A stretch of 48,265 bases of DNA from Schoenoplectus triqueter (lineage: Eukaryota; Streptophyta; Magnoliopsida; Poales; Cyperaceae). The notes below the pieces were generated by a model that was not told the origin of the DNA, made no database searches, and saw only the letters and a program-made list of their open reading frames with translations. Numbering within the stretch: the stretch's first letter is position 1; the number at the start of each line of letters is the position of its first letter. Made by a program: the position numbers and the translations under genes. Below, piece by piece: positions 7,070 through 45,532 of the stretch. The stretch covers positions 1-48,265 of the forward strand of contig CAXKVV010000563.1 of the NCBI GenBank assembly GCA_964058805.1, in the 5' to 3' direction.

Positions 7070-7374
7070 TGTGTGACCCTTTTTCGCGCGCTCCCCACCG
7101 CTGAGAATGAGGTGATGAGATGCGGAAGAAGGATACGGAGATACCTCCCGAGCGTGCATTTATTTAGTGCCGGTTGAACTCATCGCTGAGACCCATTGGG
7201 ATGCATATTCATGGAGTTTTTTGTTAATTGGGGATCCTTTTAGATTTCGGTGGGCGCAAGCCCCCACCGTTAATTACCCTGTGCTATTAACCTCGAGGTA
7301 CCTTAGGATCTCGAAAGAGGAAGCAAATACTATAGCTAAATGATAATCAAGTGGTCAAGTAGTCAAATGTTTGA

Positions 7375-8560
7375 GTGATGGGATCACTGAAACACCAAGG
7401 ACTTACTAATAGATCAGTCCGGCGAGGCAAGAATGACAGAGAAGATGAACTTACCAACATATCAGTTTTTATCTTCAGGATACAGTGTAAATCGAATCTA
7501 CAAACATATCGATTCAACTTACATAGGGTGTTGACACATAAACTTACTACAGATCAGTTCGGGGTTTAAAAATAGGCGAAAATAAACTTACAAATAGATC
7601 AGTTCAAATTCAAAATAGATAATAGATGCAGATGCAGAAACAGATGAACCTACTACAGATCAGTTCATTGAAACAAATGATAGAGGTATAGATGAACTTA
7701 CTACAGATCAATTCATTGAAATAGATAATAAAGGTATAGATAAACTTACTATAAATCAGTTCATGAATACAGGTAAAAATGATACAGGTGAACTTACTAC
7801 ATATCAGTTCATTACATATCAGTTCACAGATACGGATACGGTGTAAATTGAATCTACTAACAGATCGATTCAACCTACGTGGAGTGTGGACAAACGAACT
7901 TACTATAGATCAGTTCGCTGACTGATGACAGATACAGATAAACTTACTAACAGATCAGTTCATTATGTGGCAGAGAAAGATGAACTTACTACAGATCAGT
8001 TCAATCTTTACAGCTTCGAGAGATGACCTTACAAACAGATCAGATCAATCTCTACGAAGGGACAGAAGATGAGTCTACTAATAGATGGACTCAATCTTAA
8101 TTGATCTAGAAGATCAACTTACTAATAGATCAGTTCAATCTTGACTAGTCAATGACCAATCACACAAAATACAACTCGAAGCACTGAGCCGATTGATCTT
8201 GATGTTGGTAAATCAGAAGATGGGTGGATATAGCCCACTTGTTCATCTTGCTGATCTTCTAGATCATGAATTTCAAGCACTGAGTGGATTCATAAACCTA
8301 GGAACACTTATGCACACAAAGTCAAACATGAAGCGCTAAGCCAGTTTAACTTTGACGCATGTGTGTTAGTGAATGAACCTACAAATAGATCGGTTTAATT
8401 TCACTATTTAGAAGATGAACCTACTACAGATCGGTTCAATCTTTTGGTTTGAGAGATGAACTTACAAATAGATCAGTTCAATCTCTTAGACAAGAAGACA
8501 AACTTACAAATATATCAGTTTAGTCTTAATAGCGTGTCAAGTCATGAACAGTTGTTCAAG
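7375..8560 (-). repeat. stem-loop array in LTR C (TACTACAGATC loops)
   Basis: More than a dozen short units show the plan outer arm, inner arm, conserved loop, inner arm, A, outer arm. Clear cases follow. 8412-8443: AAGAT and GAACC pair with GGTTC and ATCTT around TACTACAGATC. 8453-8485: GAGAT and GAACT with AGTTC and ATCTC. 8495-8527: AAGAC and AAACT with AGTTT and GTCTT. 8066-8098: AAGAT and GAGTC with GACTC and ATCTT. 7848-7873: TTGAATC with GATTCAA. The loop varies little (TACTACAGATC, TACAAATAGATC, TACTAACAGATC), while stems change on both sides together. The same array lies near the 3' end of LTRs A and B. Confidence 0.85.
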
Positions 8561-9059
8561 ACATAGGGTCAGTAGATAGTGGACAGAGTCCATACAGTTG
8601 TCTTATTTATCATCCTAAATCATGAATTCTGAGCACTTGGCCGATTTATGGATTTAGGATTACCTTGTACACAAAATTAGACTCAGGGTTCTTGGTTGGT
8701 CTAATATTAAGACATGTTTGTTAGAGAGTGAGTTTCTAGATAGTTCAGCTCAGCTCTTCTCATTTAGTCAGATCATGGGCTTACGAGTAGATCAATCTCA
8801 TATATATGCACCACTAATCTTGGGAGGTAGCCAATGCATTTGATGATCGATGGATCATCAATCTCAGAATCATGATGTCACTTCTTCAGACATCATAATG
8901 TTCTTCTTTGAAGTCATCACACTCGCTGTGTTGATATTGCAGTCTCAGTTGTCTTCTTGGCAAGCGTCAAGATGTTCTTGTCCTAACTGTTGTTAATTGA
9001 CTATTACTTGAGCAAAAATGCTTCGTTGCTCTACACCCCTTGTATGAGCTTTATTTAAC

Positions 9060-9480
9060 AACTTCTAAAATGCAAAAGAATTATTACATTATTATTGAAT
9101 TTTATTAATAAGATAATATCATTTATTATTATCTTAATTACAAAGGTGAATTTATTTTTATTTTTAACTCGCTTTATTTTATAGAAAATTACTTAAAAAA
9201 TAATAGAAAAATATTTAGCCATTACTCAGCATTTTATTTGGATTTTTAGGATTTCTATAATAGCCAAAATAGCAAGTCAAATCTTGGTCAAACAGAAAAA
9301 AGCAAACAATGTCATTTTTCTTTTAAATTGTTTCAGTATAGTAACATTCTTGAAACTAAAATATTTATATATAGAAAAATAATATGAAAAACAAAAAAAT
9401 TTAGAAATAAAATTGAGTCAATTTGGAGTTTGAGAAAATCTCCAAATGATTTATTTACTCCTTATTTTTAATTTTCTGTT
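9060..9480 (-). repeat. AT-rich LTR segment in copy C
   Basis: A low-complexity segment with ATTATTATT runs and the phrases TAATAGCCAAAATAGCAAGTCAAA and TCTATATAAAAA-like sequence. It is the shortened counterpart of 16480-17815 in B and 38880-39960 in A. No coding sequence. Confidence 0.7.
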
Positions 9481-10268
9481 ATTAATTGAGAACTGGGCTT
9501 TGTAAATTGGGCCAAGATTGATTTTCCCTTTATTTCTGCAGATTGGGCCCAATTCTATTTTCTTTTTATTTCCTATGAACTGGGCATGTTCTCAACTGAG
9601 CCGCAGTTTAAATGTAGCATTTAATTTGGGCCGTTGGATTGTACTGAGATTGGTGCGGAGTTTTTATTTAAATGTTCAGATGCACATGGGTCGCCGAATT
9701 TAGTTGAAATGCGTGTTTAATAGATCTAAGACCCGGATCTCTTCCCGTTCTAATCTTCTAAACTTTTGACATATCTCATTCGTCAATGGATTTCAAGATT
9801 AGTGAGCTGCTTCAATAGTCGTGCTAAGGGATATCTATCTTTTCTGACTCGCCTCGCATTGGGATTCACGCTAGATGGTGGTTTCCGGTGATCAGAGCTC
9901 CTCCCCCGATCAAGCTAGTGCCTTGGTATCTCCTCAGTGCATAGAGTCTCTCTATGATGCCTGATCAAATATCTATGTAGTGATTAACATTGCTCGATGA
10001 TGTCAGTTAGTGTACCAATTGAAATTGGTACCAAATTGATTTCTTTGCTAAATTCGATGGAATTAATCGATGTTGTTGACAATTGCAAGCTCAATGAGTA
10101 TCTTCTAGACTTGTTGATATGATTTGAGATGAGTAGAAGGCTTCTCCTTTGTTTATAATAGTGCTGGAGCAACTCGTTGCTTAGCAGTGCACAGTACAGT
10201 TGGTACCAATCTCAATTGTCTCAAGTTGTGATCTTTCATTGACTCTTCTTATCCAATTGGCACTCCTC

Positions 10269-10949
10269 AGGCCTAAAGGCACACCTAGACACAGGTAGGG
10301 CTAGTGGCTCACTGAGTTGAAGGATTATTGAAGAACAAAATCATGGTGTTTGTTGTTGTGCGCGACGCTGAGACACAATTCGATGAAATTGACTAGTGTT
10401 CTAGGAAATTACAAGCTCGGTACGCATCATCTCGATGCATAAGTGTGATATGAGGTGAAGAGAGGGGTTCTCCTTTGCTCATAGCTATGCTGAAGCATAA
10501 TGCTGGTTGACAATACTCCGTACCGATCTCGATTTCTTCTCAATTCAAGATACTAACTGGATTTTGCACACTTAATTGTCATCTCTCAAGCCTAAAGGTT
10601 CACCTAGCAAAGGCTAGGGCCAGTGGCTTGCTGAGTCAGATGATAAATTCAATGGATTTGAATCGATTAGCGATATACTAATCTTACTAGAATTAGTGTA
10701 TTTACAAAGGAATTACGTGACTCAAACTATTTTTCATCAATTACAGTGATTCAACTAAAGCAACTAGAGGATGACAAGCTTATACCTTTCGATTATCACC
10801 AAATTAGAAGTAGGAAGATTAATCGAATATGAAAATTCACAAAGAGTAATAGCACAGTAGCAATCCCGTTATAAATTCTTTGATGTTTGTGATTGATTCA
10901 GGCCTAAAGGCTCACCAATCACCTTGTGATTGGGCCAATGACTCACTGA
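10269..10949 (-). repeat. three variable-stem modules with conserved flanks (LTR C)
   Basis: Three modules about 310-325 bp apart start at 10269, 10588 and 10900. Each reads AGGCCTAAAGG(C/T)(T)CA on the left and GGGC(C/T)A(G/A)TGGCT on the right. Between these flanks sits a small hairpin whose sequence differs entirely in each: ACCT with AGGT (10283-10296, weak), CCTAGC with GCTAGG (10603-10618), CCAATCAC with GTGATTGG (10915-10933, loop CTT). The flanks hold their own short palindromes. LTR A has two such modules. Confidence 0.8.
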
Positions 10950-11315
10950 ATTCAATCAATTAGTGTCAATTGAGATTCTTTAGGGAAGAAATAATAAGGA
11001 GATAGAAGAAAGAAGCAACTTTCACAAGGAAACAACAAGAATGAGTAAAGAAATTCAATTGATTGTTTAATGAGCATGGATTGGATGTTTTAAACTCAGT
11101 TTCAGAGAAAAAAACACAAAGAAGCATTGATTGAATCGATGAACATAACTAATTACCTTCAATTCTTGACAGAAAAAGCAAATTGAGCAATTTTCTTTTC
11201 TAATTTTCTCACTCTCTATCTCTCTCTACAACTGATAAAATGCATGTGTGTGTGTGCTCCCAATCTCAGTCTCTCTCTTGCTGTCTCTTCTTTCTCACTG
11301 TTGTTGGCTGCCAGG

Positions 11316-11323
11316 TTTATATA
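11316..11323 (-). promoter_or_regulatory. conserved TATA box in LTR C
   Basis: TTTATATA on the plus strand is TATATAAA on the LTR strand, at the place matching 15089 in B and 37293 in A. A CATTGGTC (CCAAT-type) site lies about 35-40 bp upstream in LTR orientation. Confidence 0.55.
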
Positions 11324-12007
11324 AGCCTCCAATCGACTGCCTCACTTGATAGTCATTGGTCGATCACTTTTGAGTCAGATTGCCAGCTTGGATGGATCTT
11401 AGGCTTTCATTCTAATCGCTTGAACGGTTGTGATTGAATTGTGTTTATCTCCTAACCGTTTTCTATTATAGCTTTGACTATGTCGCGATTTCATTGACTC
11501 CAACTCTCAATTACTTGTGTATTCCGACTGATGAGTGGGCCCTGAGTTGTCAATTCCTATTAAACCCTCCACGGCTAACTTGAACACTATTTCATTCATT
11601 TATCAGCTTCAATTTCTCTGAGCTCATTTCTGTCCCGTTTTCAATTCTTGACCAATTAACATCTCATACGTTCAATTGCTCTATCAATTCGTGTTAACTA
11701 GTATCACCTTAGCCTAGATAATCTCCTTGATCATGCAATTTCACCTTTAAATCACCTATCAAGCTTGCCCTTTCGCCGCTACCTTCGACAACTCTCAATC
11801 TCCTAGCTTCCCCCTTGCTCAATTATTTCGTAATTGCTTGCTAATTGGCATCTCCTAAGCGCTAGAAAGCTATTTTTGCGCTCAATTTGGTGCTTAAAGC
11901 ACTCAATTTCACTCAATATAAGTGTACATTTACTGTTTCAACTCGAATTGAGGTAGGCTTACTGCTTAATTTCCCTTTCATTGCTACATCCCTGTTCTAG
12001 TCTCTTT

Positions 12008-12012
12008 GATCA
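12008..12012. repeat. target-site duplication, left (GATCA)
   Basis: GATCA directly before the TG of LTR B; the identical GATCA follows its CA end at 19525-19529. Removing B and one GATCA rejoins LTR C sequence in register with LTR A. Confidence 0.93.
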
Positions 12013-18070: not shown

Positions 18071-18574
18071 CAAGGTGGTGACACAACTTGTTCATTGCTA
18101 ATAAGTCACCACAATATGGCAGATTCTGAAATGGCTTGTTTTATGATTTGCCCCTTTTGATAAACTTGTTTCAACGTTAGACAAGCCATGAGCCCTGAGT
18201 CTAATTTTGTACACGAGATAACTCTAAATTTGTGAATCAGTTGAATGTTCAAAACCCATGATTTAGAGGTACTCAAACATGCTCACATAAGGTGAGGAGG
18301 AGTAATACAATGATTCGTGCACAAGTAATGCAACATATTAGAATAATTAGTCGGGACAAGAACATCTTGACGCTCGTTGAAGAATAATCAAGGCTGCGAC
18401 ATCAACATGAAGAGATATGTTGACTTCAAGAGAGAAGAACATTACGATGTCCGAGAGAAGTGACATCTTAATGACTCGGTGTCATGAACAAATAATTCAT
18501 GACTACTTGAGCTAGTAAGACTGAACTCATCCGTCGATAAGTTTGTCTTCTGATTCATTTTTCAAGATTGTGAG

Positions 18575-19203
18575 ATTGAATCGTTCTGTAGTAGATTCAT
18601 CCACAAAATAGTGAATGTGAACCGTTCTGTAGTAGGTTCCTTCACTAACACATGCTTCAATGTCAGGCTGGCTTAGTGTTTCAGGTTTGACTTTGTGCGT
18701 AATTGTGTTCCTAGGTTTATGAATCGGCTTAGTGCTTGGAATTCATGATCTAGAAGATCAGTGAGAAGAAACACGTGGGCCAAATCCACCCTTCTCCTGA
18801 TTCACCAACCTCAAGATCAACCGGCTTAGTGCTTCGAGTTGTATTTTGTGTGATTGGTTGTTGACTAGTTAAGATTGAACCGTTCTGTAGTAGGTTTATC
18901 TTCTAGATCAATCGAGGTTGAGTCGTTCTGTAGTAGACTCACCTCAAACCCCTATGAAGAGATTAATCTGATCTGTAGTAAGGTTATCTCCCGAGGCGGT
19001 AAAAGACTAAACCGATCTGTAGTAGGTTCGTATTTCATGGGATCAACTTTGAACCATTCTGTAACAGGTTTATTTTCTAGATCAACTGAGATTGAGTCGT
19101 TCTGTAGTAGACTCACCTCGAACCCCTTCGAAGAGATTAATCTGATCTGTAGTAAGGTTATCTCTCAAGGCGGTAAAGACTGAACCGATCTGTAGTAGGT
19201 TCA
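18575..19203 (+). repeat. stem-loop array in LTR B (GATCTGTAGTA loops)
   Basis: About ten units on the plus strand have loop G(A/T)TCTGTAGTA. Examples of pairing arms: TGAATC with GATTCA (18577-18599), GAACC with GGTTC plus outer GTGAA with TTCAC (near 18611-18643), TGAGTC with GACTCA plus outer GAGG with CCTC (near 18914-18943), TGAACC with GGTTCA (near 19180-19203). A ~172-bp block of these is duplicated (18877 and 19050). The open reading frame across it is a by-product of the repeat. Confidence 0.85.
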
Positions 19204-19279
19204 TCTTTCACGGGATCAACCTTTCGGTGAATCCAGACGACCACTTGACCATCATTTAACTATACTATTTGTTTCTCCC

Positions 19280-19524: not shown

Positions 19525-20735
19525 GATCAATTCATCAGTGTGTGCCATCTATCTTTGAAGCTTTCACAATGGTGAGACGCCATGGAAAGAAGCAAACTCA
19601 CGCGTGCGAGGAGAAGAAGGAGAAGAGAGAGTAGGGTGAGTGCTCGACTGGGATAGATGTGCTTGGTTTTCATACACCAAAGCGTAGGAGAGGAGAGAGG
19701 CAGAGAGTTGAAACACCTATACCAAGTCCACCCTTCTTTTATCTCTTGTTTAAATTCAACTGTATTTGGATTGAATAGGTCGGTTTAATAGATTCGGTTT
19801 ATGGCTTTAATTCATGCACCTACTCACATTGTTCTGACTGATGGGTCTCACCTGTAAGGTTTAATTAGCGGTTGATTAGGGTTAATGTGCTGAGATGGCT
19901 CTGTCTGATTGGTTGTCTATTTAATAAATAACTCCTTAACACCAAAAATCTGGCTTAATAGATGGCTGAGGTGGCTCTGACCAGTGGTGCCACGTGTGTT
20001 GTTTGTATTGACCTGTACCAACCAGAGGAAGCCACTTGTAATCTCTATGTATATTGTGTGATGACATGGCACCAGTTTGTATCTGCCACGTGGCATGGTG
20101 GTGGGGCCCATCTGTCAGGTCTGTAGGGTTGTGGGTCCCACCTTGTAGAGGTGGACTAATAGGAGGCTGCCACGTGGCACAACTGTGCTGAGGTGGCCTA
20201 ATCTAGTACTGCCACGTGGCACACCCTCTCCTCTTCTGTTATGTATTCTCTGTGTTTTTTACACCCAGTTTGTACCCAAGGCTGCTGTTGTCCCCATGTT
20301 ATACCCAGAGAGACCCTGATCAAATCTCAGCCCTTGATCTGCCTATTTAATCTATTTTATCTTCTATGAATTTATTTTAATAGCTTCACTTGTTCAAAAA
20401 TTCTGAAATTTTCACCAAAAATCTCTAAATTTATGGTGATCACTCCAGTAATTTTTTATTCTAATTTTACCTCTATTTTCTTGTGCTACAAAATCTTTTG
20501 TCAAGAAAACTCTGTTTTCTCCTCTGAAATAATCCCAATTTCAATTGTAGCTCAGTGTCTCTGCTAAATAAAATTCTCTTGCAGAAACCCCCCTAATTAA
20601 ACACCAATTAGATTTGTATTGATATTTATTAGGGTTTGATTTGTTCAAAAGTTGATTACATGTTAACAATTGATATAAATCTCAACTTGATCAGATGTTT
20701 GCAATATTGGCATCCGATCAGTCTTATGAAATTGA
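19525..20735 (-). repeat. second half of LTR copy C, with GATCA and G-boxes
   Basis: After the second GATCA (19525-19529) the reverse complement of LTR A about 35190-36590 resumes. It includes TGCCACGTGGCA three times (20084-20095, 20168-20179, 20210-20221), GTGGGGCCCAT and the 127-bp repeat. It ends at about 20735 in copia sequence. It proves that B sits inside C. Confidence 0.88.
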
Positions 20736-25443: not shown

Positions 25444-26535
25444 TCATTCTAGGAATATATATACTACATCATATAAATCGAGGATAAAGCCACTCTTCAA
25501 TATCAAACGAGGAGTTCCAACAGTCTCGACTTCAGCCTCTAATCCATTAACTACCTTGAGTTTTCTTTCTCCCTTTTGAAGCATCCTCACGAAAAGGAAT
25601 CTCTGCAATGAGTTCGTAATGTACACAGAGACACCAGTGTCAACCCACCATGTATTTAAGGGAATATCCACTGAAAGATATTCACAAATCATGAAATTAA
25701 AACCATTACTCTTCTTAGTGAGCCAATCTTTAAACTTGTTACAATCTTTCCTCGTGTGTCCATGTTTCTTATAATGATGACACTTCGGAGTATGTTTTGT
25801 ACCAGACATACTTGCTTTGTTAATACGAAAAATCATATTAGCCTTATTTTTACTTTTACTATTGTCTTTAATTTTCTTCGATTTTGGATCATCAGTAACA
25901 TCATGTGCAAAGTCAGATTTTTCAGCCTTAATCCTTTCTTCCTCCTGAACACACATAGCAATTAATTTATTCATTTTCCACTTCTCTTTATATGTATTAT
26001 AATTGATCTTAAAAGGACCAAATTGCACATGAAGAGAAATCATAATGAAATGAACTAAAAATCCTTCAGAAATTGTCATATCCATGCCTTTTAATTTTGC
26101 AGCCATATCATTCATCATCATGATATGTTCACGTACACCGTTTGTCCCATTATACTTGAAAGTGAGCATTTTCATTATGAGAGCACTTGCATTAGCCTTA
26201 GAAGTACTCTTAAATTGCTTTTCAACGGAAACTAAATATTCTTTAACAGTGAAATGATTACTTTGTGCATCCTTCACAGAAATACCTTTTCTTATTGTAG
26301 ATGTAATAGTGTTTTTCATAATCATGAGAGATATACGATTAGAACGCTCCCATTTAGCAAAGTTAGTTTTATCATCAGTATTGCTTTTATTTGTTAAAGC
26401 AGCATGTTTGTCTACACGTAAGGCCTGATCAATTTTTAGAACACCGAGACAAATTTCAATTTGCTCTTTCCAAGTTGAAAAATTAGTTTCATTCAATGGT
26501 GTTATTCTAGATATTTGAGCACTAATACTATTCAA
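25444..26535 (-). pseudogene. copia Gag with start of protease
   Basis: A 363-residue open stretch starting at ATG 26535. The N-terminal two thirds match copia Gag (NETNFSTWKEQIEICL, then FTVKEYLVSVEKQFKS and KMLTFKYNGTNGVREHIM). A lysine-rich linker leads to CHHYKKHGHTRKDC, a zinc knuckle that has lost its second cysteine (CX2CX4HX4C expected). Then TWWVDTGVSVYITNSL fits the copia protease active site (D(S/T)GA expected, here DTGV). It ends in LYDVVYIFLE where the family has YVPxxxxNLISV, so the protease frame stops early. Gag packages element RNA; this copy is probably dead. Confidence 0.9.
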
Positions 26536-34244: not shown

Positions 34245-34349
34245 TGTTTACCCTTGAAAGATATCAAGGATGAATAGATGAATAAATGAAAATAAAATTG
34301 ATGATTAATGATAAACCATAAGAAAAGGGAAGAAGAGAAAGCAATGAAA

Positions 34350-34905
34350 GATGGCCCACTGATCAGAAGAGGTCGCTGCCTAACCCCGGAACAAATCCAT
34401 TAGTCCAACAATGGAATGCTGGGCATGAAGTGAAGAGTATAAATACCCCACTATTCTCTATCCACTCAGCATGAGTGACAGCTGAGAGGATCGAGGGAGA
34501 GAGGAGATCTCTCGGGTGTCACCATGTGATTATATCTTTTCTGACAAGTGGGACCCACATGGCAGTCCCTTATGAGCAGCTCCAATGACATGGACCTAGT
34601 CTATTTTGCTAAGAAAACTAATCAACCCGGAACAGAGGTTAAGCATTAATCCCACAATGAAATATTAGAGTGAAAGACGAGGATATAAATACCCCACCAC
34701 CTCCTACTCATTCGAGGTGGCTGACCCTCGGGAGATTTCAGAGAGAGAAAATCTCCTGATGGGTCAGCCATTTGATTATATTTTCTCTGACAAGTGGGAC
34801 CCACCTGGCAGTCCCTTATAGATGAACCTGACAACATAAACCTAGCCTATCTGATGAGTCATTCATGTGACCATTTTTCACTGACAGGTGGACCCCACAC
34901 CTCAG
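34350..34905 (+). repeat. promoter-hairpin repeats in LTR A (two units plus remnant)
   Basis: TATAAATA at 34438 and 34684 (period 246), each followed by a hairpin: GTGACAGC/TGTCAC type near 34466-34523, and GGCTGACCC with GGGTCAGCC at 34719-34769. In LTR B the latter is GGCTGTCCC with GGGACAGCC, so one base pair has flipped on both arms. The third unit is deleted except for its GACAGGTGGACCCCAC end. Confidence 0.87.
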
Positions 34906-35711
34906 TGACCTATTATAGGAGTCAGAGTTGAACCCTAAAAATCTGCCCTTGGAGCTAACCCTAGAAAGAAGCTGAAGCAGTATAATCCCTATGCTACATG
35001 AAATGATGTCAATGCCAAGCTAGCATTTTGATGCAACTAGTCATGAGAAATTTCAAATGTGATTTTGCTTTCAAGGCTGACTTGGTGCCAAAGCTGTGAG
35101 CAACCACCTAACCATGCTTTGATTTGTGTCAATTACTGATAAGTAGTCAGTTCTTTGACCAAGTCACCCTCATGTTAAGGGATTGAAAGTCAATTTCACA
35201 AGACTGATCAGGTGCCAAAGCTGGGAGCAACCATCTGATCAAGTCTAGATCTGTATCAACTGTTGACATGTAATTAACTGTTGATCAGATCAAGCCCTAA
35301 TGAATATCAATATAAGTCTAATTGGTATTTAGTTGGGGTGGTTTCTGCAAGAGAGAGATAATTGGCAGAGACATAGAGCTACAATTGAAATCAGGGATTA
35401 ATTCATAAGGAATAATAGGGTTTTATGGATAAAAGAATTTTTAATTCAGAGAGGCAAGGGTAAAAATGGAATTAAAAATTACAGGGATGATCATCATGAA
35501 TTTAGAGATTTTTGGTGAAATTTTCATGATTTTTGGATGAGTAGAGCTATTAAAATAAATTCAGGGAAGATAAAAGCAGAATAGATGGACTGATCAAAGG
35601 CTGAGATTCAATCAAGGGTTCATCTGGGTGCAATTTGGGGACAGAGACACATCTGGGTGCAAACTGGGGATCCTAAGCACACCTACATCGAATCAGGGAA
35701 GAGAGAGGGTG

Positions 35712-36130
35712 TGACACGTGTCAGCATCTCATTGGGCCACCTCATGCCACGTGTCAGCACCCCATTGGTCCACCTCAGCCATGTGGGCCCCACACCCCTA
35801 CAGACCTGACAAGTGGGCCCCACCTATGCCACATGGCAGTCATCCACTGGTCCACATCGATAGCCACCTCATACAGCAGCTAGACAAATGGCAGCATGCT
35901 ATAAGGCCACCTCAACAGCCCAATGCCATGTAGCCTTCCCTTATTGGTCCACCTCACTACTGTGAACCCCACTATACCATAAGACGACTGACAAGCGGGC
36001 CCCACTGGGTGCCACATGGCATACACTCACTGGTGCCATGTCATCATACAGTGTGTACAAGGAGTGACAGATGGCTTCCTATGATTGGTACAGGGCAACA
36101 CAAAGTGCCACATGGCACTATATCACAGAG
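35712..36130 (+). promoter_or_regulatory. G-box and TCP-type site cluster (LTR A)
   Basis: TGACACGTGTCA (35712-35723) is a perfect palindrome at the place of TGCCACGTGGCA in B, changed symmetrically. ATGCCACGTGTCAG (near 35744) follows, then GTGGGCCCCAC near 35783 and 35814, and several TGCCACATGGCA variants to about 36118. Confidence 0.6.
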
Positions 36131-37292
36131 CCACATCATACACAGATCATTAACACTAAGGGTTTGTTTAATAAAGCAACCAACCAATCAGGCAGAGCCA
36201 CCTCAGCCTATTAACCCTAATCATTATACTAATCAACTGCTAATTAGATCTATAGGCGTATACTCACAAACCTTACAGGTGGGGCCCAGGATATAGAGAT
36301 AAGAGTATAGGCTCATGGTTGAAGTGGTATGCCAAGTCTATCCTACTGGTTTGTCCTGCTCAAATCGATCAAATTTAAAAAGGAGATGAAAACAAAATGA
36401 ACCTGGTGCATGCTCCCCCAGTCGCTGATCTACTCCCCTCTGACGCTTTGGTGCACGTGCGCCTGAGCCGTCCAGCCCAGCCGAACACTCTCCCCGCTCT
36501 CCCTTCTTCTCCTTCTCCTCTCGCGCGCGAGTTTGTCTCTTCCCATGGCGTCTCACCATTGTGAGAGCTTCAAAGACAGTTGATGCACTTTAATGAATTA
36601 ATCAGAGAAGCTAGAGCAGGGGGGTAACAATAAAAGGGAGTTAAACAACAAGCATACCTCAATTCGAATTGAAACAGTAGAAGTACACTTCTGTTGAATA
36701 CAATTGAGTACTTCGGGCACTAAATTGAGCACAGAGACAGCTTGATTATGCTTAGGCGATGTCAATTGGCAAGCAATTACAAAGAAATTGAGCAAGAGGA
36801 AAGCCTGGAGATCAAGAATTGTCGAGAGCAGTGGCAAAGAGGCAAGCTTGATAGGCGCTTCAAAGGTCAAATTGAATGATCAGAGAGCTTATTCAGATCA
36901 AGGCGACACTAGTTAGCGTGGAATGAATGAGTGATTGAGTGGAAGAAGTGAATTGCGCCAAGAGAAGAAGTGAGGCAGAAACCCGATTTTGAAATGAATG
37001 AAATTCAGTGAAATTGAGAGAGAGAAAGTGCTAGCTATGGTGCAGAGGCATTTAAATACGGTTTATTGATAAGAGGGCTTGCTTATCAATCAAAGTATCT
37101 GTTGAATTGGAGTCAAAGAGCTGCGGCACAGTCAAACCATAACAGAAAGCAGTTGGGCGATTTTCACAACAAACACAAATCAATCTCAGCCATTGATTGA
37201 AGTAGAATGAAGGGTGAGGATGTGTCCAAGGTGGCAATCCGAGTGGAAGGCAGCCAACCAATCACAATTGGGTTAATTGGCCGGTTCTAGCC

Positions 37293-37300
37293 TATATAAA
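37293..37300 (+). promoter_or_regulatory. conserved TATA box, LTR A
   Basis: TATATAAA with CCAATCACA about 35 bp upstream, the same arrangement as in B and C. If this is the main start, U3 is about 3.07 kb and R plus U5 about 4.3 kb. Confidence 0.55.
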
Positions 37301-37656
37301 CTGAAAATTAGCAACAGTAATAGGGGGAGATCCATTGGCAGAACAATTGAGAGCATCTACACATACACCAGTGATCATCAACTAGAAAGAGTGTGAGAGA
37401 TTAGAAAGAAAATTATTCAATTCATTTTTCTGTCAAGTATAAAAGGTAATCGATTGTGTTCATTGATTCAACTAATACATTTTCTTTATATTTCTTGTTT
37501 TTAGAGTTTTCAGTATCCTATTTAAGTTTACTAAGTGATCAATTGAGTTCTTTCTTAGTTCTTGTTGCATTTTCTTTTGAAATTCATTCTTTTCTTCCAC
37601 CTCTTTACTGTTTCTCCTTTTAAATAACTGCATTTAGTATTAATTGATTGTATCTA

Positions 37657-38003
37657 GCGAGCCACTGGCCCAATTATAAATTAATTGGTGAGCCTTTAGG
37701 CCTAGATCGGTCACAAACATCAAGAATTTATAATTCAACTATTATTGCATTAGTTTCTTTGTGATTTTTCATTTTCAATCTGTTTTCTTGCTCATATCCA
37801 TGCAATAATTGAAAGGTGATGACTTTTACCTCTTTAACATTCTAATTGTACAGTTTTAGTTGAATGAATTAGCCGATTCCTTTGTAATACACTAATTCTG
37901 GTATAAGTTAGTATATCGCTAGGATTTTAGAATTGAATCAACTGCTATCTCAGTGAGCCACTGGCCCCAGCAGTGCCTGGGTGAGCCTTTCGGCCTGAGA
38001 AGT
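37657..38003 (+). repeat. two variable-stem modules (LTR A)
   Basis: Both have GAGCCACTGGCC on the left and GGTGAGCCTTT(A/C)GGCCT on the right, about 300 bp apart. The hairpin between differs: CCAATTA (37670-37676) with TAATTGG (37682-37688), and CCCAG (37966-37970) with CTGGG (37977-37981). Outer arms GCCA/TGGC and GCC/GGC would give three small stems in about 50 bases. Confidence 0.8.
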
Positions 38004-38879
38004 AGTAATTAAGGGTGTGAATTCAATAAGCATCTTGAATTGGAGAAGAATTGAGGTTGTACTAGTCGGTTTTGCATAATCTCCAACTAACAATGATGTA
38101 ACGCGATCATTTGTAAATAAAATCACTCACATTCACCTTAAACTACACCTACATATCAAGGCGACGCTTACTGATCTTGTAATTATGAAAGAAACTAATT
38201 AAGTTTAGCGAATTTGGCAAAAAGACGACTCGGTACCAATCGGTACTGTACACTGACAAATGATGAGGTGGTCTTGCACCATTACTAGCTCAAGAGGAGT
38301 CAATTAATCGCTTCAAATCATGATAACATATCGAGGCGATGCTCATCGATCTTGTAATTGTCAAGAACTTCGATTAATTCTGTTGAATTTGACGAAAGAA
38401 ACATCTCGGTACCGATTCTAACTGATACACTAACCGGTACCATTGTGCGGCATCTTTCACCGTATGGATCCTCGATCAAGAACCGCAAAGGAATTCTACA
38501 AGGCAAGACGATGCAGAGGCACTGACCTGATCATAGAAGGAGTACTCCGGCCGCCGGAAGCGCCGCTCAGCACGAATCCTGATGTAAGAACGATTCGGAA
38601 GAGATGAAAGAACCGTTGGCACGAACCTTGAAGCATGCACTGATCTTGAAGCTAATCAACACACGGGATCTGTCGAGAAATTCAATTATTAAACCAAGAA
38701 AGGATCTGGGCCGTAGATCCATTAAACACGTATCTCAAGCGAATCTGGCGGCCCAAATGAAGAAGGAAGTTATATAAAAGATGCGCACTAATCTCGGTAT
38801 AGATCTGGCGGCCCAGATTAGGCCCAATAATTAAATAATAACAGAATACTAATGGTATGAAATAAATAAATGATTTGAA

Positions 38880-39868
38880 AATGCTCCTGAACTCCAAATT
38901 AACTCAAATTTGTTTCTAAAATTTCCTTATTTTTCATACTATTTTTCTATATGATAATATTCCAGTTTTGAAAATATAATCATGATAAAACAATTTTAAA
39001 GCAAAAGACATTACATATATTGATATATTTGACCTAGCTTTGACTTGTCATTTTAAATACTATAAAAATTCCAAAAATCCAAATAAAAATCATAAATAAT
39101 AACTAGATATATTTTACTGATTTTTCAAGTGATTTTTCATGAAATAATAATGATAATAGTAATATGCCATAATAAATGATGAGATTAGCTATATTCTTTG
39201 ATAAATAAATAATAATAGATATTATGTTGATATTTTCTATAAAAAGAATAATAAAAATAAATAGCACAAAAAATACAAAAATATATACTACCATGATAAT
39301 AGATAGTAAATATATTTTCTTCTATAATAAAGAATGATAATATAGTTTTATAATAAAATGAATTGCATTTCTTTTGTTATTTCTATACAAATATACAATA
39401 AAAATATTTTTGATGAATAAAATGCAATAAAAATAATAGTTGTAATAAAAATATAATGAATTTCATCTCTTATGGCTATTTTCAACTAATAATAATAATA
39501 AAAAAAAATCTTATACTTTTCTATAGATAATAAATAGAAATACTAAAAAAAATAATGAATAGTATAATAAATAAGATAGAATATTGATAATGATTTCTTT
39601 TAGCTATTATAGATCTAAAAAACAAAAAAATATATAATAATAAAAATAATATAGCTAACCATCTTTTGATTTTATTTTCTAGTATTTTGTAAGTGATTTT
39701 CTACAAAATAAATAGAGTTTAGAAATAATAAAAATAGAATTCTATTATTTTAGCTATTATAAAAAAAAATATAAATAAAATTCTAGTTAATAGCTAATCC
39801 CTTTTTCTATTATTTTGTAAATAATTTTCTATAGGAATAGATAGAGTCTAAAAATAAAAATATATATA

Positions 39869-39915
<47 letters not shown>

Positions 39916-39960
39916 AATACATCTTTATAATAGAAATAATAATGGAAGATATTATATAAT
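38880..39960 (+). repeat. AT-rich low-complexity segment (LTR A)
   Basis: The counterpart of 16480-17815, with a (TA)n run at about 39860-39885 and an (ATA)n run to 39909. No coding sequence. Confidence 0.8.
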
Positions 39961-40058
39961 AGGCTTTGTAGATTTTGGAAATGGACAAATAAGCTCACAT
40001 AAGGAATGTAGAGCCACATGAGAATGTTTGCACACATGATATAACCTTTAGAAGATAC

Positions 40059-40274
40059 GTCGAGACAGGAACATCTTGACGTAGGATGATTAAGGCTTTG
40101 ATAGCAACATGAGAAGATATGTCGAGACAAGAACATCTTGACACTTGATAAAGAATAATAAGACACGTCGAGACAGGAACATCTTGACGTAGGATGATTA
40201 AGGCTTCGATAGCAACATGAAGAGATATGTCAAGACAGGAACATCTTGACGCTTGATGAAAAATAACCAGAACT
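40059..40274 (+). repeat. 108-bp tandem repeat with small inverted repeats (LTR A)
   Basis: GTC(G/A)AGACA(G/A)GAACATCTTGAC starts at 40059, 40121, 40167 and 40229 (spacing 62, 46, 62), giving two 108-bp units; a single copy lies at 40456. CGTCGAGA can pair with TCTTGACG. LTR B has one copy near 18353. Confidence 0.85.
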
Positions 40275-40679
40275 GCGACATCAACACGGAGATATATGTC
40301 AACTCTGAGGAAGAAGAACATTACGATGTCCTAGAGAGGTGACATCTTAATGACTCACTACCATGAGCAAGTAACTCATGACTGAATACGCTCACACGAG
40401 GGATGTAGGGCAACATAGTAATTTTGCACAAGTAATACAACATGTAGAATGATTAGTCGAGACAAGAACATCTTGACGCTCGTTGAAGAATGACCAAAGC
40501 TACGACATCAGCATGGAGAGATATGTCGACTTTGAAGAAGAACATTACGATGTCCGAGCGAAGTGACATCTTAATGACTCGGTGTCATGAACAAGTAATT
40601 CATGACCATTTGAGCTAGCAAGACTGAACTCATCCGTCGATAAGTTTGTCTCCTGGTTCATTTCCCGAGACTGTGAGAT

Positions 40680-41352
40680 TGAATCATTCTGTAATAGATT
40701 CATCCACAAAACAGTGAATGCGAACCGTTCTGTAGGTAGGTTCCTTCACTAACACATGCCTCAATGTTGAACTGGCCCAGCGCTTCAGGTTTGACATTGT
40801 GCGTAACTGTGTTTCCTAGGTTTATGAATCGGCTTAGTGCTTCGAATTCATGATCTAGAAGATCGGTGAGAAGAAACACGTTGGCCATATCCACCCTTCT
40901 CCTGATTCACCAACCTCAAGATCAACCGGCTCAGCGCTTCGAGTTGTATTTTGTGTGATTGGTTGTTGACTAGTTAAGATTGAACCGTTCTGTAGTAGGT
41001 TTATCTTCTAGATCAACGGAGGTCGAGTCGTTCTGTATGTAGACTCACCTCAAGCCCCTCTGAAGAGATTAACCTGGTCTGTAGTAAGGTTACATCTCGA
41101 GGTGGCATAGACTGAACCGATCTGTTTGTAGGTTCGTCTTCCATAGGACAGAACTGATCTGTTTGTAGGTTTGTCTTCCATAGAATTAAGTAAAGATTGA
41201 ACCGATCTGTTTGTAGGTTCGTCTTCCATAGGATTGAACCGATCTGTTTGTAGGTTCATCTCCCATAGAATTAAGCAAAGATTAAACCGATCTGTTTGTA
41301 GGTTTGTCTTCCATAAGACTGAATCGATCTGTTTGTAGGTTCGTCTTCCATG
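40680..41352 (+). repeat. stem-loop array in LTR A (GATCTGTTTGTA loops)
   Basis: Eleven units. Pairing arms: TGAATC with GATTCA (40680-40702), GAACC with GGTTC (40722-40743), GAGTC with GACTC (41025-41046), TAACCT with AGGTTA (41070-41092, outer GAGAT with ATCTC), then a recent run of GAACC with GGTTC, TGAACC with GGTTCA, and AAACC with GGTTT (41284-41305). Loops are GTTCTGTAGTA, GGTCTGTAGTA or GATCTGTTTGTA. The last six units form a fresh tandem run with CTTCCATAG spacers. Confidence 0.87.
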
Positions 41353-41419
41353 GACCCCTTTTTATGAACCTAGACGACCACTTGACCATCTTTTAACTAT
41401 ACTATTTGCTTCTCTCTTT

Positions 41420-41662
41420 CAAAGATCCAGAGGTGCCTCGAGGTTAGTAGCCCAGGGTAATTAACGGTGGGGGCTTGCGCCCACCGGAATCTACAAGAAC
41501 TCACAATCACTAAAAAAACCCCTGAATGTGCATCCAAATATCTCTAAACGGCAGAATCGGCCGACACCCAGCAGATGCACGCTCGGGAGGGATCTCCGTG
41601 TCCTTCTTCCGCGAACCCATCGCCCAGCGGCGGTGCGGCGGCGCGCGAAAAAGGGTCGCACA
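41420..41662 (+). repeat. conserved LTR 3'-terminal domain (copy A)
   Basis: Same domain as in B, C and D. Hairpin CGGTGGG (41465-41471) with CCCACCG (41480-41486). In LTR D the arms are CAATGGG and CCCATTG, a double compensatory change. Confidence 0.8.
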
Positions 41663-41667
41663 GGATC

Positions 41668-41686
41668 TGGCACGCCCAGTGGGACC
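41668..41686 (+). other. primer-binding site of gypsy element A
   Basis: TGGCACGCCCAGTGGGACC begins with the TGG expected for a tRNA 3' CCA end and lies five bases after the LTR. I do not assign the tRNA. Confidence 0.75.
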
Positions 41687-41769
41687 TAGATTCTCCTCTT
41701 ATCTCTGAAAGAGAGAGGCAAATAGAATATTTAAAGGATACAAGTGGTCTTCTATGTGCTAAAAAAGAC

Positions 41770-41800
41770 TAATAATTTTCAAGTGTTTTTGTTTTTGCAG
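41770..41800 (+). other. likely 3' splice site in the leader
   Basis: A CTAAT branch-like site is followed by a T-rich tract and TTTTTGCAG, four bases before the Gag ATG context GAAATGG. This is a textbook plant acceptor. A donor is not certain; AAGTG/GTCTTC at about 41743 would be too close, so the donor may lie in the LTR. Confidence 0.5.
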
Positions 41801-41803
41801 GAA

Positions 41804-44800
41804 ATGGCATACTTCGGCAACTTCAACCTCGCTCCCTACACTGTCACTCCTGCAAAGAGCCCAGAGGGCAAATTGTTCATGTTCTTCGGGACCATCCCGC
41901 AAGAACTCACCATCTACGGCCCAGCTCCAGTGGCCGCCTTCACTCCTGCGACCGTCCGGATCTCCATCCCGGACGAAGAGGAGGAGTCGATCACCTTGAC
42001 TCCCAAGGGGATCTCAAACAATGTCATGGCCTCTCCTACTACCTCCCCAAAGAGGAGAAGGCGCCCGTCTAAAAAGACAGCCCCAAAGGTCGCAGCCCAA
42101 ACTGCCCGTAACTCTCAAGCGTCCAGGAAGAGGGCCCTGGACGCATACCAAAATCAGCTGGTGGCTAGGCCAGCTATCCCAGTCTCCAACAAATTTACGG
42201 CACTCCGTATAGTGGCTAAGAACTCGGCCACAGGCCAGCTCCGCCAGGCATGGGAGGTGCCTAAGCCCACACCTCGCCCAACTCAAAGGCCTCAGCGCCG
42301 CCAGGATAAGTCTCAAACCCCTGCAGAAGCCATCTATAAGGCTCACAGGGCCCTCAAACAGAGGAAGAACGTCAAGAACGCCAGGTCGAGACGATACGTC
42401 TCCCGCCCCGATCACTCTCAAGGCATGGCTCAGCCGCAAGCCATTGCCTCCACTCCGAACACAAGGAGGTCTATACCAAAGGCAACACCTAGCACCCAGC
42501 AGGTGTGGGTCCCAAAGGGTTCCCAGCCAATAAAGCCCCAATCTCAAGCCCAGCCCAACAAGGCCGGCAAATCTAACGCTCCGCCCGAGAGCGTGTTCAG
42601 CCGTCTAGGTCAGAAGAGTGTATTCAGCCGATTAGGCTCGAGAATACCACTCAATAACCTGAAAATAACTGCTCCTGACCAAACAAAGAAGAAGAGAAGA
42701 ACCGCTCGCTATGAAAAGCACTTCTCAGTCAACACCATCAGTATAAGCTACGATACTGATCCAGATACTGATGGTGAGGTGAATATGGTCCAGGATGACC
42801 AGTCCCCACCTAATCAAGCTCACGTCACAAACACCAACAAAAATAATGGTAGAAAAGGGAGACCTCCCAAGAGAGTCAACCCCGAAGGCAATAGCAGGGA
42901 AGGGGAAGACCACAACGAAAACCCTGACTTTTTCGACAATGAAGATGACGTCAAAACACGTCCTGAAGTGCCTATCGATGAAATAGAAATACTAAAAGGC
43001 CACATCGAGGCACGGGACGAAGAGCTGATTAGGCAACGGGAGCTAATTGCTACCATGCTGAAGCAGAACGAAGAATTGATTAAGGCGGTCAAGTCATTGC
43101 AAGAATCACAAGACGCCAATTTCAAAGCTGGTAGTTCCCGTCAAGAAGGGGTCCACAGTACCAAAAGCAATCATAAGGGAAAACAACCTGTCGATTCTAA
43201 ACCCCATCCACATAGAACCATAGAAGTGGAGGGTGAACCAACGGGAATATCCCGGAAGGAGATTCAAGCCATGATTGCCCAGCAAATGCAGATAGCTGGA
43301 GGTGGATACGCTATCCCTCCCGTTAAAAACTGTGGACATCCATACCCTGCCATATACGACTTAGAAGAATATCCTAAAGGGTATGTGATTCCCCACTTCA
43401 GGACCTTCTCCGGGGAAGGCAATAAAGACCTAAACCCCGAACAACATCTGGCCCACTTTGTAGCCTCGTGCGGCAACACGGGCGGTAATGATGCACTGTT
43501 GTTAAGACAATTCCCTCAAAGCTTGGTGGGAACCGCTTTCCAATGGTACTATTCATTAGAGAACAACAGCATCAGGACCTGGGACGAGATGGCAGACTCG
43601 TTCAGGGCGCGATTTGTCATGGTGTCTGACAAGATAAACATAGCTGATCTGGCAGGCACTAAACCCAAGAAAGGGGAGTCAATGACAGATTTTATCAATA
43701 GATGGCGGAACCTCAGCATTAAATGCGACCGCACATTAACTGAAGATGAGGCCGTCAACTTAATCATGAAAAACATTGACGGGTGGATGGGCATGCTTCT
43801 TGGTGTGACAAAGGTTAACACATTCAAAGACTTGCTCAGATCGGTATCCAATATGGAAAGGATGTCACCGCATACCATGCCGAACTTTATGAATAATAGG
43901 CCGCAACGAGGAGCCCGAGCCGAGACTAAAGTGGCATTCACCTCGTTAAAGGATAAGATGGTCGCTAACGCAGATACCCAAAGCGGCAGCAGTGGCACAA
44001 ATGGCAATAATTACAACAAGGGACCCAGGCCCAATCCAGGAGGGAGTTCACGGAGTTTTGAGTCCCTCAAACAAAAGAAATCTAAACCGTACTCCTTCAG
44101 GAGAGATAAAGTTGCCCAAATCTTCAGAGGGGCACTGAAGAATGGTCTAACCCTGCCGGCCAGTAAATGCCCGGAAGATGCCGATAAATCGGACGAACCC
44201 AACTTTTGCCCATACCACAGAGTACTAGGGCACTCAATTGAAGATTGCTGGGTCTTCAAAGATTGGGTCGAGAAGGCGTATAAAAACGGTGAAATTACTT
44301 TACCCAAAGGGTTCTTGCAAAGCCCATCAGCCCATGAACAGGCCAATATGATCTCTCACGAAGAAGAGAAAATCCCGGACCAAATAAGTGGAAATCAAGA
44401 AGAGCAATGGACTACGCACTTATCGAAGAAATCGATTAAAATGCTTAAATCTCTTAAGAAAGAACCTGGCATGAAATGGAAAGACGACATCACGCCAGTG
44501 GTCCCACCAAAACCCAGGGTGTATTATAAGGTGGACCGGAGCCAAGACCAGGTTCTTAAGAAAAGAAAGAAGCATAGAAGCAACAAGTCCAAAAAGAACA
44601 AAATTGAAGAATATGAGCAGGACAGTCCCGAGGCGATCACTCTTCAACATTTCATCTCCAAAGAAGACTGGGAGAAGCTAACCCTAGGTCAAAAGAAAGA
44701 AAATATAGATGGAGAAATAAATAAAGAAAAAAGCGAAGAGATCTGGGGTGCTTCGTGCAATATGGTATATTCTTCTTGTGACGAAGATATGCCAACTTTA

Positions 44801-45532
44801 GAGGAGATGTTCTTCCCAAATGACGAAGGGGAAGCAAGCACCTCTGGGACCAAAAATGAAGAATGTAAAGCCGTGCTCCGGTCCGGGACTTACATACCTG
44901 AGAGACAAGCTCCCAAGGATTCCGATAAAGGAAAGGATAAAGCCCTGAATAAAGGTAAAGAGGTCGAGAACCCAAGCAAAAACCCAGAAAAGACCCGATC
45001 GACGGGCGAAGAATATAATGTGTTGGCACATCTGCGTAAGATCCCAGCGCTATTAAGCATATTTGATGCGTTGATGATGTCACAAGACCTAAGGGAGGTG
45101 CTAATCCAGGCCCTGCAAGATCCTGAGAAGTATAAGTCATACTTCATAGAGCAAAATATGCAAGAAGCCCTATTCACCGCCAAGCGGGCCGCCTGTATAA
45201 ATTTCACAGACGATGACCTCCTAATAGGCACCGTCGACCATAATCGCCCGTTGTACATTACCGGAAACTGTGGAGGGCAAAAGATTGGCCGCATTTTGGT
45301 CGACGCAGGGTCTTCGATCAATATCATGCCGCTTAAAACCCTAAAGACCATCACCTTAGATGTGAAGAATCTATCTGATGAAAAGGTGATTATTCATGGC
45401 TTCAATCAAAACTCCCAAAAGGCCCTGGGAGCTATAACCCTAAATCTGCAATGTGGAAGCCTAAAAGCGCCTACTAAATTCTATGTTATTGACGCTGAAA
45501 CCTCTTATCGGGCGTTGCTGGGTCGCCTGTGA
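41804..45532 (+). CDS. Gag-protease polyprotein of gypsy element A
   Basis: 1242 codons from ATG 41804. I chose this ATG because it follows the acceptor-like site; the open frame extends about 20 codons upstream without an ATG. Residues 83-91 (KRRRRPSKK) look like a nuclear signal. SVFSRLG occurs twice (263-269 and 272-278). A glutamate-rich coiled coil spans about 393-435. The retrotransposon Gag domain is about 530-690 (NPEQHLAHF, LVGTAFQWYYSL, GESMTDFINRWRNL). The finger CPYHRVLGHSIEDC starts at 802. Protease has DAGSS at about 1167-1171 and YRALLGR near the end. Translation stops at TGA 45530, where the family has RPWLH: the Trp codon became a stop and Pro became Leu. It forms the particle and matures the polyprotein. 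Confidence 0.9.
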   Translation: MAYFGNFNLAPYTVTPAKSPEGKLFMFFGTIPQELTIYGPAPVAAFTPATVRISIPDEEEESITLTPKGISNNVMASPTTSPKRRRRPSKKTAPKVAAQTARNSQASRKRALDAYQNQLVARPAIPVSNKFTALRIVAKNSATGQLRQAWEVPKPTPRPTQRPQRRQDKSQTPAEAIYKAHRALKQRKNVKNARSRRYVSRPDHSQGMAQPQAIASTPNTRRSIPKATPSTQQVWVPKGSQPIKPQSQAQPNKAGKSNAPPESVFSRLGQKSVFSRLGSRIPLNNLKITAPDQTKKKRRTARYEKHFSVNTISISYDTDPDTDGEVNMVQDDQSPPNQAHVTNTNKNNGRKGRPPKRVNPEGNSREGEDHNENPDFFDNEDDVKTRPEVPIDEIEILKGHIEARDEELIRQRELIATMLKQNEELIKAVKSLQESQDANFKAGSSRQEGVHSTKSNHKGKQPVDSKPHPHRTIEVEGEPTGISRKEIQAMIAQQMQIAGGGYAIPPVKNCGHPYPAIYDLEEYPKGYVIPHFRTFSGEGNKDLNPEQHLAHFVASCGNTGGNDALLLRQFPQSLVGTAFQWYYSLENNSIRTWDEMADSFRARFVMVSDKINIADLAGTKPKKGESMTDFINRWRNLSIKCDRTLTEDEAVNLIMKNIDGWMGMLLGVTKVNTFKDLLRSVSNMERMSPHTMPNFMNNRPQRGARAETKVAFTSLKDKMVANADTQSGSSGTNGNNYNKGPRPNPGGSSRSFESLKQKKSKPYSFRRDKVAQIFRGALKNGLTLPASKCPEDADKSDEPNFCPYHRVLGHSIEDCWVFKDWVEKAYKNGEITLPKGFLQSPSAHEQANMISHEEEKIPDQISGNQEEQWTTHLSKKSIKMLKSLKKEPGMKWKDDITPVVPPKPRVYYKVDRSQDQVLKKRKKHRSNKSKKNKIEEYEQDSPEAITLQHFISKEDWEKLTLGQKKENIDGEINKEKSEEIWGASCNMVYSSCDEDMPTLEEMFFPNDEGEASTSGTKNEECKAVLRSGTYIPERQAPKDSDKGKDKALNKGKEVENPSKNPEKTRSTGEEYNVLAHLRKIPALLSIFDALMMSQDLREVLIQALQDPEKYKSYFIEQNMQEALFTAKRAACINFTDDDLLIGTVDHNRPLYITGNCGGQKIGRILVDAGSSINIMPLKTLKTITLDVKNLSDEKVIIHGFNQNSQKALGAITLNLQCGSLKAPTKFYVIDAETSYRALLGRL

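Follow-up and report, generated by a model that had tools for sequence, protein, structure and literature searches.

Introduction

The closest known system to the arrays described here is formed by the palindrome boxes of the Sireviruses, Ty1/copia retrotransposons whose long terminal repeats (LTRs) carry repeated motifs such as CACCGGACTGTCCGGTG (PMC2829016, PMC5311732 and PMC10760457, through which the Sirevirus LTR motifs of Bousios et al. 2016, PMC4728375, are also taken). According to the accessible parts of these papers, the motifs are reported small-RNA hotspots with predicted secondary structure, their stem is conserved around a short spacer (with a CGG-CCG core in most), and an average of 37 bp separates their CpG island from the TATA box downstream (PMC2829016). 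The present arrays lie in three LTRs, termed A, B and C, within a 48,265-nt stretch of DNA from Schoenoplectus triqueter (hereafter the window). Like the Sirevirus boxes, as far as these are described there, they consist of many clustered dyad-symmetric motifs, 11–20 per LTR, upstream of a candidate TATA element in a plant LTR. On the other hand, their stems vary in step, the 11–12-nt loop has a constant core, there is a bulge on the 5' side, and the element is Ty3/gypsy by its gag. Two features that define the Sirevirus boxes in the accessible text are absent here: arms such as GAACC/GGTTC, GAGTC/GACTC and AACCT/AGGTT lack the CGG-CCG stem signature, and the element of LTR C, judged by gag alone, is not a Ty1/copia Sirevirus. 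An earlier, sequence-only reading of this DNA knew of no described plant LTR module of the kind. That statement has to be narrowed, since Sirevirus palindrome arrays exist (PMC2829016), but these keep the stem and not the loop; in the open-access literature, mainly titles and abstract openings, no module was found in a plant LTR that combines a constant loop with covarying stems.

Retand elements are also large plant gypsy elements with non-coding tandem repeats, but their arrays lie between pol and the 3' LTR, their LTRs measure 315–1,194 bp, and the main text of that paper, so far as it is accessible, does not mention hairpin, stem-loop or secondary structure for them (PMC11963269). The packaging or dimerization hairpins of retroviruses and Ty1 likewise reside in the element's own RNA and offer a functional analogy only, those of Ty1 being placed by the accessible text near the RNA 5' end (PMC5454406). 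Here, the hairpins stand in 11–20 copies in an LTR, and their binding is putative. The iron-responsive element is a bulged protein-binding hairpin with a constant loop, a 5-bp upper stem, an unpaired 5' base and a free lower stem. The units described below resemble it in these four respects and differ in having another loop, a tandem arrangement and no known protein. The CAGUGN loop of the iron-responsive element is not matched by them, and no Rfam family reached its gathering score in the window.

Host elements and LTRs

The retrotransposon features of the window are as follows:

34245..41662, plus strand: LTR C, 7,418 bp, 5' LTR of a Ty3/gypsy element extending beyond the window end
41668..41686, plus strand: PBS-like TGGCACGCCCAGTGGGACC, its putative role taken from its position 3' of LTR C
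41744..45532, plus strand: gag ORF, 1,262 aa, Retrotrans_gag PF03732
12013..19524, plus strand: LTR B, 7,512 bp, read as a solo LTR nested in LTR A
7070..12012, minus strand: LTR A, 3' part, from blastn within the window and from the sequence

LTR C and LTR B have a common start, TGTTTACCCTTGAA, and TG...CA termini, as read directly from the sequence. The terminus of LTR C, ...GCACA, is followed by the PBS-like site and then by the gag ORF, in which PF03732 is the sole Pfam match. The named relatives of the gag protein are two Dioscorea alata Retrotransposon gag proteins (47% identity); a third relative is 90% identical across 61% of the query. On its TG...CA ends, PBS-like site and downstream gag ORF, the element of LTR C is classed as a Ty3/gypsy LTR retrotransposon. 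From its size and gag style only, we presume that it belongs to the Tat/Ogre/Retand lineage.

LTR B is flanked by a 5-bp target duplication, GATCA (12008-12012 and 19525-19529, read directly), and has LTR A homology on either side of it (blastn within the window); this homology picks up again at about 19525-19530 and reaches at least 20735. The 5' end of LTR A was not found, and the start motif of LTRs B and C is absent from the minus strand of the window. A copia-type gag ORF (PF14223) is present at 25444-26535 on the minus strand.

Architecture and extent of the arrays

In each unit, a loop of 11–12 nt with the core TCT[G/A]T...GTA is closed by a 5-bp inner stem, below which a single 5' base, usually T but in some units C or A, is left unpaired before an outer stem of roughly 5 bp. 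The inner arms that the sequence-only reading had listed are present, but it had missed the single unpaired 5' base. It had also proposed extracting the units and building a covariance model from them. Such a model was trained on 37 window units, 2 of 39 window matches without paired arms having been left out before model building. It finds 43 hairpin units in the window at E < 0.01 (20 in LTR A, 11 in B and 12 in C; 6 of the 43 lie outside the training set), all inside the LTR arrays, and its next best match has E 0.26. The units are repeated as first described, but the figure of some 30 was too low, and the C array starts not at 40680 but at 40620. The model matches delimit three arrays:

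40620..41347, plus strand: LTR C array, 12 units
18517..19207, plus strand: LTR B array, 11 units, starting at 18517, 18572, 18613, 18871, 18914, 18959, 19003, 19045, 19088, 19133 and 19176
7394..8527, minus strand: LTR A array, 20 units, with low ends at 7394, 7442, 7489, 7535, 7579, 7641, 7689, 7737, 7785, 7845 (units 1-10), 7891, 7935, 7977, 8020, 8066, 8110, 8370, 8412, 8453 and 8495 (units 11-20)

Another 315 nt of LTR C follow the C array. Its units, all on the plus strand, are listed here, P3 to P5 being homologous positions in other LTR copies:

40620..40652: unit 1, divergent loop, E 0.0055
40675..40706: unit 2, inner arms GAATC/GATTC
40716..40748: unit 3, inner arms GAACC/GGTTC
40976..41007: unit 4 (P3), GAACC/GGTTT, one G·U
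41019..41051: unit 5 (P4), GAGTC/GACTC, outer arms GAGGT/ACCTC, bulge C
41065..41096: unit 6 (P5), AACCT/AGGTT
41108..41140: unit 7, GAACC/GGTTC
41145..41177: unit 8, GAACT/GGTTT, two G·U, bulge A
41193..41225: unit 9, GAACC/GGTTC
41230..41262: unit 10, GAACC/GGTTC
41278..41310: unit 11, AAACC/GGTTT
41315..41347: unit 12, GAATC/GGTTC, one U·G

The unit occurs throughout the genome. In the 82-Mb assembly to which the window belongs, a 30-mer from one unit occurs at 408 places with at most three mismatches, and an A-type 21-mer at 460 places with at most two; the reversed controls occur at none. The same covariance model finds 82 units in 10 further loci, and A-type copies are 73–90% identical to LTR A across the array. 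One copy, L022, has a second 3' landmark 772 bp past the first, its LTR 3' end being partly duplicated, with units of its own.

Units were also extracted by their loops, with no selection on the arms: 365 from 43 LTR copies, and a second set of 327 from 23 A-type copies (including LTR A, L041 and L044 of the first set), which together comprise 400 distinct units. Among 155 distinct units, the outer stem is 73% Watson-Crick when one 5' base is omitted, versus 53% in shuffles, and 15 alternative registers rise at most 13 points above their own shuffles; about 90 of the 155 fit the single-5'-bulge register best. The mean minimum free energy of a unit is -6.4 kcal/mol, versus -3.1 when shuffled, and at least four inner pairs appear in the predicted fold of 316 of the 400 units. 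In 128 distinct units, 583 of 640 inner cells are Watson-Crick, 41 G·U, 4 A·C and 12 other, where shuffling would give about 111 G·U and 79 A·C.

How constant is the loop? The extraction pattern (a loop of 11 or 12 nt with T3, T5, T7 and the last A fixed) forces constancy at those positions among the 400 units, and divergent units such as 40620-40652 are left out of the loop-pattern counts. The covariance model is free of this pattern. In the alignment of B/C LTRs, GTA columns change 0.21 times and TCT[G/A]T columns 0.64 times per column, versus 1.33 outside units; loop bases 1-2 and the middle bases change more than the spacers. In the A-type alignment, GTA columns change 0.95 times versus 1.73 for spacers, and TCT[G/A]T columns are faster than spacers (2.11 versus 1.73). 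TGTA is present in 277 of the 400 distinct loops; UGUA was rejected as the recognised core, 123 loops being without TGTA. The sequence-only reading had suggested a bound factor or a loop-loop contact. Kissing of loops may be possible for class II, whose loops are self-complementary; among class I loops the most frequent one, which has a central TT, lacks this property.

Covariation of the arms

All 10 pairs change on both sides among 35 distinct window units. There are 56 two-sided cells, versus 17 in shuffles, none of 500 shuffles reaches any of five measures, and pairing falls from 86% to 29–51% when partners are slid by 1-3 columns. For 79 distinct units of the 10 further loci, which were chosen by a structured covariance model, paired cells, two-sided cells and covariation score are each reached in 0 of 500 shuffles, and two coarser measures in 12 and 2 of 500. 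In a pair test modelled on R-scape, in which a G-test with average-product correction is set against a null that preserves the tree, proposed pairs take ranks 1-4 of 780 column pairs among the 400 distinct units. Two of the 10 pairs are individually significant (E 0.01–0.02), ranks 5-10 go to non-proposed pairs, and one outer pair ranks 239th. An earlier tree null on 138 units had given E 0.07–0.12 for the best three pairs, further units being added afterwards. On a tree of the 400 units, built from 40 columns, there are 13 inner and 14 outer two-sided changes from pair to pair, versus a simulated mean of 1.4 each and a maximum of 6 in 100 simulations.

Copying between units does not explain the covariation, because units that are copies of each other group together on this tree and each two-sided change is scored on a branch. 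Homologous positions could be followed in 58 (P3), 60 (P4) and 52 (P5) copies among 73 sequences, the remainder having no anchor or unit there; these copies are related, and some are the LTR pairs of one element. One pair of P5 is C-G in 34 of the 52 copies, U·G in 6, U-A in 11, A-U in 1 (a misplaced unit) and C·A in none. The outer arms of P4 read GAGGT/ACCTC, AAGGT/ACCTT or AAGAT/ATCTT. Judged from these comparisons of sequence, pairing has been kept through changes on both sides beyond what shared ancestry would give. The sequence-only reading had named two results that would have spoken against it, covariation no greater than phylogeny and arm changes explained wholly by copying. The two-sided changes exceed those of all simulations, and copying is insufficient, since homologous positions in different LTR lineages carry different matched arms. 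Its proposal of selection for a folded hairpin is supported by the covariation above the tree-preserving null (two of 10 pairs alone), by the homologous positions and by the U·G intermediates.

When did the matched changes arise? Nine presumed same-element LTR pairs in the assembly lie on the same strand, 17–22 kb apart, except for one pair 51 kb apart that contains another element, and are 98.3–99.9% identical along about 4.3–4.5 kb. They show 96 differences in 39,496 aligned sites, 5 of them in the 2,367 unit columns; three of these five are in arms, all one-sided. When A-type and B/C-type copies are treated separately, two-sided changes of the inner stem make up 7 of 42 on internal branches (35 one-sided) and 3 of 165 on tips (162 one-sided; p 7e-4), so that matched change in the inner stem appears mainly tied to the replication cycle. 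For the outer stem there is no difference (2 of 31 on internal branches and 4 of 90 on tips, p 0.65).

Strand and surrounding structure

Which strand is selected? In the 1-kb domain of seven LTRs, sense and antisense fold about equally well, and folding energy is therefore uninformative on the strand. Changes giving G·U and A·C were compared with non-unit columns matched for CpG, CHG, CHH and A/T context, which replaced raw counts because the C of the inner arms is often in CpG. Among inner changes, 95 give G·U, which is 0.57 of expectation, and 56 give A·C, which is 0.40 (p 0.021), an excess of G·U that was stronger (p 0.006) when LTR A, L041 and L044 were still in both alignments. For inner stems on internal branches plus B/C tips, the values are 0.45 and 0.19 (p 0.008); other cuts give p 0.115 (internal branches alone), 0.18 (A-type tips) and 0.17 (outer stems). 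In structures predicted without G·U, the G·U/A·C ratio is 1.1–1.5 with five references and below 1 with LTR B as reference. The better survival of G·U points weakly to sense RNA.

The hairpins lie in a longer stretch that is predicted to fold. In L012, 150-nt sense windows have a folding z of -2 or lower in 11 of 23 cases from about 1.66 kb before the 3' landmark onward, versus 1 of 35 upstream of that point. Of the cells that correspond to the 413 pairs of the predicted L012 structure in the other 40 copies, 94% of those without gaps hold standard pairs; outside the unit hairpins there are 35 two-sided changes, versus 0–13 for slid versions. Past the array, alignment identifies the following feature:

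41397..41407, plus strand: candidate TATA element CTATACTATTT, 50 nt past the array

The sequence CTATANTATTT is present in 10 of 11 aligned LTRs and missing from L041, an A-type LTR without the stretch that holds the TATA-like element. Directly 3' of the candidate core promoter, at 41465-41486, is a GC-rich hairpin, CGGTGGGGGCTTGCGCCCACCG, largely kept in A- and B/C-type LTRs.

Several other hairpins recur in the domain. A second class, at 40760-40960 in LTR C and also in LTRs A and B, has loops GGC[C/T]NAG[C/T]GCT, in which AG[C/T]GCT is self-complementary as RNA (with G·U) and resembles a dimer-initiation loop. These loops give 114 hits in 43 LTRs, at most three per LTR, and 111 of the 114 hold AG[C/T]GCT. 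A third class, at 40360-40606, includes CATGAGcaagtaaCTCATG and CATGAAcaagtaaTTCATG within one LTR, a compensatory change with a constant loop. A 108-bp tandem repeat at 40052-40266 carries GTC[A/G]AGACA[A/G]GAACATCTTGAC hairpins, and GTC[A/G]AGA...TCTTGAC and CATGAG/CTCATG alongside CATGAA/TTCATG also recur. Three matches to known RNA families in the C array stretch (E 2.3–4.3), and two exact 17-mer matches in viral contigs in which the covariance model finds no unit, were taken as chance.

Discussion

A constant loop over variable bulged stems is the usual signature of a protein-recognised RNA hairpin. We tentatively favour the reading, to which we give somewhat less than an even chance, that the array consists of bulged stem-loops likely selected as sense-strand RNA, their loop core being recognised many times by one RNA-binding protein. 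Each unit would offer the TCT[G/A]T...GTA core to this protein, which could be the element's own Gag or a host protein; the stems would be free to vary because only their shape and the loop are read, and the 11–20 copies per LTR suggest multivalent binding. Such a multivalent site would mark the element's RNA for packaging, export or stability. We infer that the selected molecule is the full-length RNA of the element, which includes every part of the LTR at one or both of its ends. If transcription is directed by the candidate TATA at 41397, the array would lie in U3 and so near the 3' end of that RNA.

The array may instead act as DNA, as a U3 enhancer whose imperfect palindromes upstream of the TATA are bound by dimeric transcription factors, as has been proposed for Sirevirus. 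The array stops 50 nt short of a TATA-like element kept in 10 of 11 aligned LTRs, Sirevirus palindrome boxes are also upstream of a TATA box in the accessible text (PMC2829016), both strands fold equally, and the order of array and TATA fits an enhancer as well. However, dimer half-sites have no reason for joint change, and here the arms covary around a loop core, the bulge is on one side only, and survival is somewhat higher for changes to G·U than for changes to A·C; we regard the enhancer reading as unlikely. Template switching was the main alternative of the sequence-only reading. By quasi-palindrome correction, for example in reverse transcription, it would copy arm onto arm without selection. 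The relatively higher share of inner two-sided changes on internal branches than on tips is also expected from reverse-transcription errors, tandem units give many partners, and the strand bias against it is weak (p 0.02). But correction would erase bulges and mismatches, whereas the 5' bulge register is kept in about 90 of 155 units, and homologous units show C-G, U·G, U-A and single-pair intermediates, not block copies. The alternative is weakened by the kept bulge and the U·G states, and has in our view a rather small chance of being sufficient.

UUUGUA has a role in plant polyadenylation, and the loops could be far-upstream polyadenylation elements (UGUA or UUUGUA), kept open by the stems in the 3' LTR. 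The TGTA of 277 loops fits this, and the array would precede R if the candidate TATA is correct, but with 123 of 400 loops lacking TGTA it appears improbable. Shared ancestry and unit copying alone, with pairing unconstrained, would be in keeping with the units being tandem duplicates and the LTR copies close relatives. The numbers of two-sided events, 13 and 14 where none of 100 simulations gave more than 6 (on a tree from 40 columns), and the states at homologous positions make it highly improbable.

A bolder form of the favoured RNA reading is an RNA landing strip, in which 11–20 bulged hairpins with one recognition loop and drifting stems would serve one dedicated protein, Gag or a captured host protein, within a 1.4-kb structured LTR domain that has further classes of conserved loops. 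As a whole it is doubtful, though a serious candidate; if true, it would be the first known hairpin-array RNA module in a plant LTR. Little is known in general about the ways in which LTR retrotransposons of plants label their RNA as their own. The constant loop core and interchangeable stems provide a clean handle, in which a short RNA could serve as bait for the factor and arm swaps would separate structure from sequence. The persistence of the array among A-type copies that are 73–90% identical to LTR A suggests that long plant LTRs can hold structure lasting across lineages.
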